From the NCBI GenBank assembly GCA_949288045.1, contig CASEIC010000024.1, positions 1 to 41,131 of the forward strand: a DNA stretch of 41,131 bases, in the 5' to 3' direction. Origin of the DNA: an uncultured Mycoplasma sp. (GTDB lineage Bacteria; Bacillota_I; Bacilli_A; Mycoplasmatales; Metamycoplasmataceae). A program made the position numbers and the translations under genes. The notes below the pieces were generated by a model, which worked only from the letters and a program-made list of their open reading frames with translations, ran no database searches and was not told where the DNA came from. Shown in pieces: positions 19,840-22,191 of this stretch. Within the stretch, counting starts at the first letter, position 1, and the number at the start of each line of letters is the position of its first letter.

Positions 19840-22191
19840 ATGGTTAGTACAAGAAGATTTGTAAATGGTTCTAATATTTCAATAAACATTCCAGCAGATA
19901 ATCATTTTTTATTATCTAATTTTTGGTTTTCATTAGATGCAAAAGATTCACTAGGTATTTTTTGTAACAATAAAGAAGAAAAACAAACATTACTATCATT
20001 ATTTAGAGAAGATAATAGCAATTTAGAATTTCATGGATTATTGGATTTAAATAATAAGATAATAAATATATCAAGAAAAGGAATTTCGAAATATGTTGGT
20101 TTATATGATTTAAAAATGTTTGACGATTCTAAAATTTCACAATCAAGAACTATACAAGAAATTGAAAATATGGTCGTTAGGTCAAATTTTAATTATTTAT
20201 CAAATATAATTCAAATTAATAACAATTTAGATAAATACCTAAGGATGCAAAAAATTTATAAATCACAAAAAGTTTATCATTGATATCTTAAAGTTGTTCT
20301 TTCTTTGATTAAAGAGTCATATAAAAAAATAGAAAAATTAGACAAAGAAATTAATAATAAAAAAATTACAAAAGATGATTTGATTAAAATAAATAACAAG
20401 TTTATTAATACTCATATAAGTTATATAAGGGAAAGAATTTATGTATTCATTGATAGGAATTCAATGCTTACTGATTTATATACAAAAGAGTATAATAACA
20501 AATTAATTTTTACTAAAAATGAATCTCTATCTTTGAGAATAGAGCAAATTATTAAAAAACTTAAACTTTATGAAGGGTTTGATAAGTCATTATTTAAAAT
20601 AAGAAAAGATTTGCAAAAAATTTTTTTTGGTCCCTCTAACAAAGAAAATAATAGTAATGAAGAAAAAGATGTTATCAGTAGTTTTATTGATGAAATGAAT
20701 TGTAAATTAAGAGTGTATAATAAAAAAATTGAAAAATTTGACAAAACATCAAATGAGTATTGAATATTTTTTAAGAGAAAAAATGTTTGCAAAAGAATTA
20801 TTAAGTTAATTAAAAAAGAATGTAAGAATATGCATTTTAACGATAAAAAAACTGCAATTGATTTTTATCACGAACTTGTTAAACAATACAAAATTTCAAT
20901 AGTTAATGAAACATCATCAAATTTTAATGGAATTGAAATAAAAAAAATGAAAAAGTATTTAAGTGATTTTGTTGAAGGAGAGATACAAAACATAATTAGA
21001 AAATATAAGAACTTTATAATTAAAGAACATGAAAATGAAATGTTAAAAAATGAAAATAATGAGACAAAAAGAACAAAAGTTGAACTTGATAATATTATTA
21101 AAATGATTAAAATTGAAGTTCAAGATATTCTTGATGAAATCGAATGAGAAAAGAAAACCATCTATATGGAATTGAGTAAAACAACCGACAAAATAGCAAA
21201 AGAAATTAATGAGTTATATGAAGAATATGAAAATTTAAAGAAAAGTTATAAAAAAATTATTTCAAAATTTCTTGAAAGTAAAAACTTAGTCATTCAACAG
21301 TCAAATAAAATATTTGAAGATGAATTAGAAACTTTATCAGATGAGTTTTTTGAAACAGAATCATCAAAATTTGAATCTATATATAAATTTGTTTCATCAG
21401 ATTTAAAAGTTTTAGAAAAAATGTTATCTAAGACAATATACATTAAAGATAGATATGGGAAAGAATTAATTGTTCTTTCAAGATATATGATTTTAAAATT
21501 AGCAAAATTGGTTAATATTTCTATTTTTGATTTATTGAAAAGAGTTGGAAAATTAGATGATGTAAGTAAGAGGGTTGCTTTGATTTTTATTTCATATTTT
21601 GATAATAAAGATGTTGTTGTTTTTGATAATTTAATTACATCTTTAGATAAGCCACAAGATATTGAAAAATTTTCTTTTACATTTCAAAAAATAATTGAAC
21701 AATCAGATAAGCCATGAATACTCTTCGAAGATGATTTATCAAAATCAAAAGATGTTGTTAATAAAATCTCTATAGTTGATAATACCAAAATAATTGAATA
21801 TGGATTTAAAGATGAAATTATATCGAATCCTGTTTATGATACAACTCTTCGTTTTATTGGTAAAAAAACAACAGGAGAAAGAAGAACGCCTCAAGAGTAT
21901 AAAAGTATTATAGATTTTGATGTTAAATATGACGATTATAAGATTAATGATAGACATTTTGTTTATGGAAATATTGAGAGTATTTCATCATGAATAGATA
22001 CAACTCCACAAATGACATGAAAAACGGTATCAATTGGTTCATTTAATAATTTTGTAAATAGAAAAAAATTCGAAAAAATTCAAATGAGAACAAAGGAAAA
22101 GACAAATACCATACCTATAAAACTTAAAAAAACACAAGAAATGCATTTGGTAGATAGTGAGGAATTTTTGATTATAGATGTCAAAGAATAG
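19840..22191 (+). CDS. Degenerate OppF-like ABC ATPase with long coiled-coil insertion
   Basis: 783 residues. The N-terminus aligns with an ABC nucleotide-binding domain: LLSNFWFSLDAKDSLGIF, then CNNKEEKQTLLSLF where Walker A (GxxGxGKST) should be; only Lys47 and Thr49 survive. Residues about 100-570 are charged helix with many heptads. The C-terminal part aligns with OppD/F: DVVVFDNLITSLD (593-603, Walker B and D-loop) with the catalytic Glu replaced by Asn597; ILFEDDL (627-633) where the H-loop His should be; KIIEYG, EIISNPVYDTTL and the OppF tail. The LSGGQ signature is not recognisable. Mycoplasma OppF proteins are known to be very long, but no oppB, C or D lies here. Probably a non-hydrolysing paralogue with a structural or regulatory role. 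Confidence 0.75.

Follow-up and report, generated by a model that had tools for sequence, protein, structure and literature searches.

What can a homologue of a peptide-importer ATPase be doing in a mycoplasma once its ATP-site motifs have gone? The question is raised by a window of 41,131 nucleotides, the whole stretch of DNA analysed here, from an uncultured Mycoplasma sp. (assembly GCA_949288045.1, contig CASEIC010000024.1, positions 1 to 41,131), in which the open reading frame (ORF) at 19840..22191 encodes a 783-aa homologue of OppF; like all features below unless stated otherwise, it lies on the forward strand. The frame requires the mycoplasma genetic code (table 4), with six TGA codons read as Trp. 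Dead enzymes are rarely kept in near-minimal genomes, and a large, fast-evolving pseudo-ATPase is retained nonetheless. We refer to OppF homologues with an eroded site as F* and to the F* protein of the window as P0001; five genomes of its genus carry F* and form the window's clade (G000, G001, G002, G010 and G011, G handles denoting assemblies, some of them incomplete). On the comparisons described here, we lean modestly towards F* being an ancient OppF paralogue that became a non-hydrolysing scaffold or regulator, tied to valyl-tRNA synthetase (ValRS) at least in Metamycoplasma.

The descent of P0001 from the OppF stock is apparent at the level of profiles. A profile of the five F* orthologues aligned with an OppF profile in hhalign with 99.6% probability (E 2.6e-24) over 703 columns, across the nucleotide-binding domain (NBD), the long insertion and the C-terminal domain, while unrelated control proteins reached 0-37% probability, so that homology between F* and OppF is, by profile comparison, far above chance. 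A PDB sequence search with P0001 returned weak ABC matches only, and Pfam did not find an ABC domain in the protein, which points to deep erosion.

For the ATP site, P0001 and 27 other homologues (28 F* rows) were aligned with 26 intact OppF rows from the same family, and the motifs proved to be gone in 28/28 F* and all present in the intact reference, in which one row is truncated before Walker A. The former Walker A (residues 42-50, 19963..19989) reads CNNKEEKQT at the position of GESGSGKTT, the former Q-loop (residues 86-93, 20095..20118) VGLYDLKM at that of MQMIFQDP, and the former ABC signature (residues 572-579, 21553..21576) LDDVSKRV at that of FSGGQRQR. In the former Walker B and D-loop (residues 592-603, VVVFDNLITSLD, 21613..21648), VVVFDNL stands against VIIADEP of intact OppF, with Asp596 retained and the catalytic Glu replaced by Asn597; the former H-loop (residues 628-633, LFEDDL, 21721..21738) has Asp631 in place of the His of FIAHDL. 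P0001 therefore departs from OppF at Walker A, Q-loop, signature, Walker B Glu and H-loop His alike. The erosion of all catalytic motifs had been proposed in a preliminary description of the window, and the alignment bears this out for the Walker B Glu, the H-loop His and the missing LSGGQ. Its further claim that Walker A keeps both Lys and Thr holds for the Lys only: Lys48 alone is in register, followed by Gln49, and is present in 4/5 orthologues of the genus, whereas the Thr is out of register and Thr50 is not conserved among them. On sequence grounds P0001 is thus almost certainly a pseudo-ATPase, and is predicted to have lost ATP binding and hydrolysis of the ABC type.

Outside the ATP site, much of the OppF architecture persists. 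The helical insertion (approximately residues 96-540, 20125..21459) had been described as a roughly 500-residue peculiarity of this protein; its presence is upheld, its peculiarity is not, because intact OppFs, including that of the same genome, have it too. The span from the former Q-loop to the signature measures 478 residues in P0001 vs 507 in that intact OppF, so the insertion is ancestral, and the earlier remark that mycoplasma OppF proteins have long insertions is borne out in the same comparison. An AlphaFold2 model of P0001 was poor (predicted local distance difference test score 47), with the insertion mostly helix. The C-terminal H..Y/W element of intact OppF is likewise kept (residues 706-718, HFVYGNIESISSW, 21955..21993), with His in 27/28 and Trp in 26/28 F* rows. 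By contrast, the ATP-binding lobes, the most conserved parts of OppF (84-92% in four species), fall to 30-44% in F*, and the N-lobe is its fastest-evolving part, with 30% identity among orthologues vs 84% in OppF. This pattern of eroded lobes and a kept H..Y/W element fits a binding role rather than ATP turnover. P0001 ends in SEEFLIIDV (residues 773-781, 22156..22182), and similar EE-x-x-IID tails occur in F* from several genera and in OppF located at valS in sister species. In the latter (L077-L083) the intact OppF ends in EESTIIDV, a tail of the F* type that most OppFs encoded elsewhere lack; such an OppF is perhaps a chimera left after deletion of F*.

P0001 is encoded outside the opp operon, between a Bax1-I gene and DUF3899-valS, and not together with OppB, C and D. 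A complete operon, comprising a substrate-binding protein, B, C, D and an intact OppF, was found on contig C16 of the same genome, so that the earlier question of whether the genome has a canonical oppBCDF at another site is answered. Four other genomes of the genus carry F* in a common gene order, and their orthologues share 33-36% identity with P0001. The gene for the 148-aa DUF3899 membrane protein (22178..22624), which passes the Pfam PF13038 gathering score (25.9 vs 23.4 bits, E 1.3e-5), starts within F* throughout the window's clade, with an overlap of 14 nt in the window, and follows F* directly in 5/5 genomes; in sister species and other genera, a DUF3899-like gene also comes after intact oppF. 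Next comes valS (22651..25131), for a ValRS of 826 aa, which lies downstream of F* in 4/5 genomes, the fifth contig ending before valS. No F* was found in the other 7/12 genomes of the genus. In those seven species an intact oppF occupies the F* position, followed by a small membrane gene and valS and preceded, where contigs reach, by the remaining opp operon; intact OppF is present in every genome of the genus.

F* or candidates for it were found in 8/14 genera of the family, with the gene order ECF-S, F* and often then valS in the other genera. The calls in genera g5, g8 and g10 are those of candidates, made by position and weaker profile matches: g10 matched OppF at 94.7%, g8 and g5 matched the MAG1360 group at 89.7% and 84.3%, and g5 matched g6 at 98.0%, g6 itself matching OppF at 98.1%. 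In g8, a 711-aa ORF after the ECF-S gene (L185, 3360-5492) has weak profile similarity to F*. One branch of the eroded OppF homologues has already been named by NCBI. The NCBIfam family NF045976, 'MAG1360 family OppF-related protein', aligns with P0001 over its full length (E 2.6e-10, residues 39-750), and its members have the same architecture and have likewise lost the ATP-site motifs. P0001 scores 39 bits and the G010 orthologue 23.5 bits, whereas the family cut-off is 200 bits, so P0001 falls outside the family in its present definition; within the order, sequences that pass this cut-off were found in genera g12 and g13 only. F* shares whole-length homology, the insertion and the C-terminal element with mycoplasma OppF, from which it differs in lacking the ATP site, in lying outside the opp operon and in coexisting with an intact OppF. 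Reports on M. synoviae OppF deal with the operon-borne protein, and a literature search on MAG1360, pseudo-ATPase OppF and ValRS-transporter fusion found nothing relevant.

A tie to ValRS at the level of the reading frame appears in genus g7, taken here as Metamycoplasma. All 24 of its genomes carry valS; in 22/24, no stop interrupts the reading frame over at least the 534 residues that precede the conserved PPPN motif of ValS. A single frame running from F* into ValS was traced to full length in eight loci (L090, L092, L093, L096 and L108-L111), giving 1621-1650 aa; the stretch linking the tail of F* to the ValS methionine varies in length, yet the frame is maintained. In G056 a frameshift parts most of F* from its tail, and in G052 the two genes lie in different frames. 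Aminoacyl-tRNA synthetases with appended domains are known, and the g7 ValRS would resemble them in its extra N-terminal part; a literature search found no ABC-derived appendage on such enzymes.

F* is, where measurable, under purifying selection, with ratios of nonsynonymous to synonymous substitution (dN/dS) of 0.115 and 0.136 in two close pairs of another genus. Inside the window's clade the ratio is 0.36-0.68 with synonymous sites saturated, and these values were not used as proof. At the protein level, the divergence of P0001 from its F* orthologues is about twice that of OppF. In the tree, the intact OppFs group together in a clade whose branching mirrors the genera, and F* lies outside it. 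The approximately unbiased (AU) test rejected an origin of F* by recent duplication of the OppF of its genus (p 0.0007). The simplest history would be an ancestral region with ECF-S, opp, F*, DUF3899 and valS, parts of which were lost or relocated differently from lineage to lineage. Loss in progress is seen at L095 (5080-7346) and L183 (4291-6471), where stops or frameshifts interrupt F* in G120 and the gene is split in G066.

Could F* then simply be a decaying gene under no selection? The broken copies in G120, G056 and G066 and the absence from seven genomes of the genus would fit, yet the ORF keeps about 780 codons in the four full-length copies of the genus (the fifth is split across contig ends), and both the low dN/dS of the close pairs and the retained C-terminal element speak against it, making decay extremely improbable. 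This agrees with the earlier view that P0001 is kept as a gene, for which the erosion common to its orthologues also speaks; the dN/dS check proposed there gave purifying selection in the related pairs, the window's own clade being saturated. Alternatively, F* could serve the intact Opp system as an inactive NBD subunit, partnering its OppD or OppF so as to tune or lock peptide import, in the way of degenerate-site ABC heterodimers. It descends from OppF, retains the OppF C-terminal element and, in this genus, is coupled to DUF3899, which elsewhere follows intact oppF. In pseudo-ATPases and ABC proteins with a degenerate site, nucleotide binding or one functional composite site usually survives; F* shares with them its ABC ancestry and the loss of catalytic residues and, unlike them, has lost all motifs. 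We regard this pairing as unlikely, since every genome of the genus has intact OppF and sister species have Opp without F*, a fastest-evolving N-lobe would be odd facing a conserved OppD, and the frame shared with ValS is left unexplained. That frame might itself be an accident of adjacency, in which a stop was lost, ValS is started internally and F* is unrelated to ValRS. The adjacency is old, the ValS start codon persists, often after a purine-rich stretch, and in one genome the two genes use different frames; 22/24 frames open through variable linkers would, however, be unexpected without selection on a joint product, and we consider an accident improbable.

For the scaffold or regulator that we favour, dead F* copies kept in most genera, often by valS and once in frame with it, are suggestive, and an eroded OppF set at or near valS, in frame with it in one genus, makes it likely that the partner is not only the Opp ATPase that had tentatively been suggested at first. 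Several observations weigh against this role. The structure model is of low quality, the deep F*/OppF tree is uncertain owing to long branches, and valS is adjacent in only 7/30 MAG1360-type loci examined. F* is also dispensable in some lineages, being missing or broken there, and the start codon kept in the g7 joint frames means that they may not yield one polypeptide, a separate ValS product being possible. Of the earlier proposal, the pseudo-ATPase kept as a gene stands on the shared erosion, the intact opp elsewhere and the purifying selection, and the role itself is what we infer, as are partner and mechanism. The helical arm and C-terminal element may bind partners rather than couple to ATP, the product of the overlapping DUF3899 gene may hold F* at the membrane in the window's genus, and F* may in turn hold or regulate ValRS there. 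More doubtful is a family-wide version, in which a peptide-importer ATPase would have become a dead accessory of ValRS and, in Metamycoplasma, its integral N-terminal half, linking tRNA charging to the membrane or peptide supply. F* beside an essential tRNA synthetase, in frame in one genus, offers a case in which the recruitment of a transporter part to another task can be tested, in genera that include human and livestock pathogens.

The locus also bears on annotation. The M. hominis ValS reading frame bears about 780 extra residues, and the counterpart of F* in G020, presumably M. hyopneumoniae J, matches no named family; G069 we take to be M. agalactiae PG2. Elsewhere in the window, an 845-aa putative surface protein without a Pfam match (7886-10423, reverse strand) has an N-terminal signal and a C-terminal hydrophobic segment. 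A 1380-aa DUF4011/SF1 helicase with an MTES_1575 nuclease-like domain (10685-14827) resembles the anti-phage ProA/Hhe proteins, and in G010 and G001 a homologue of it immediately precedes F*.
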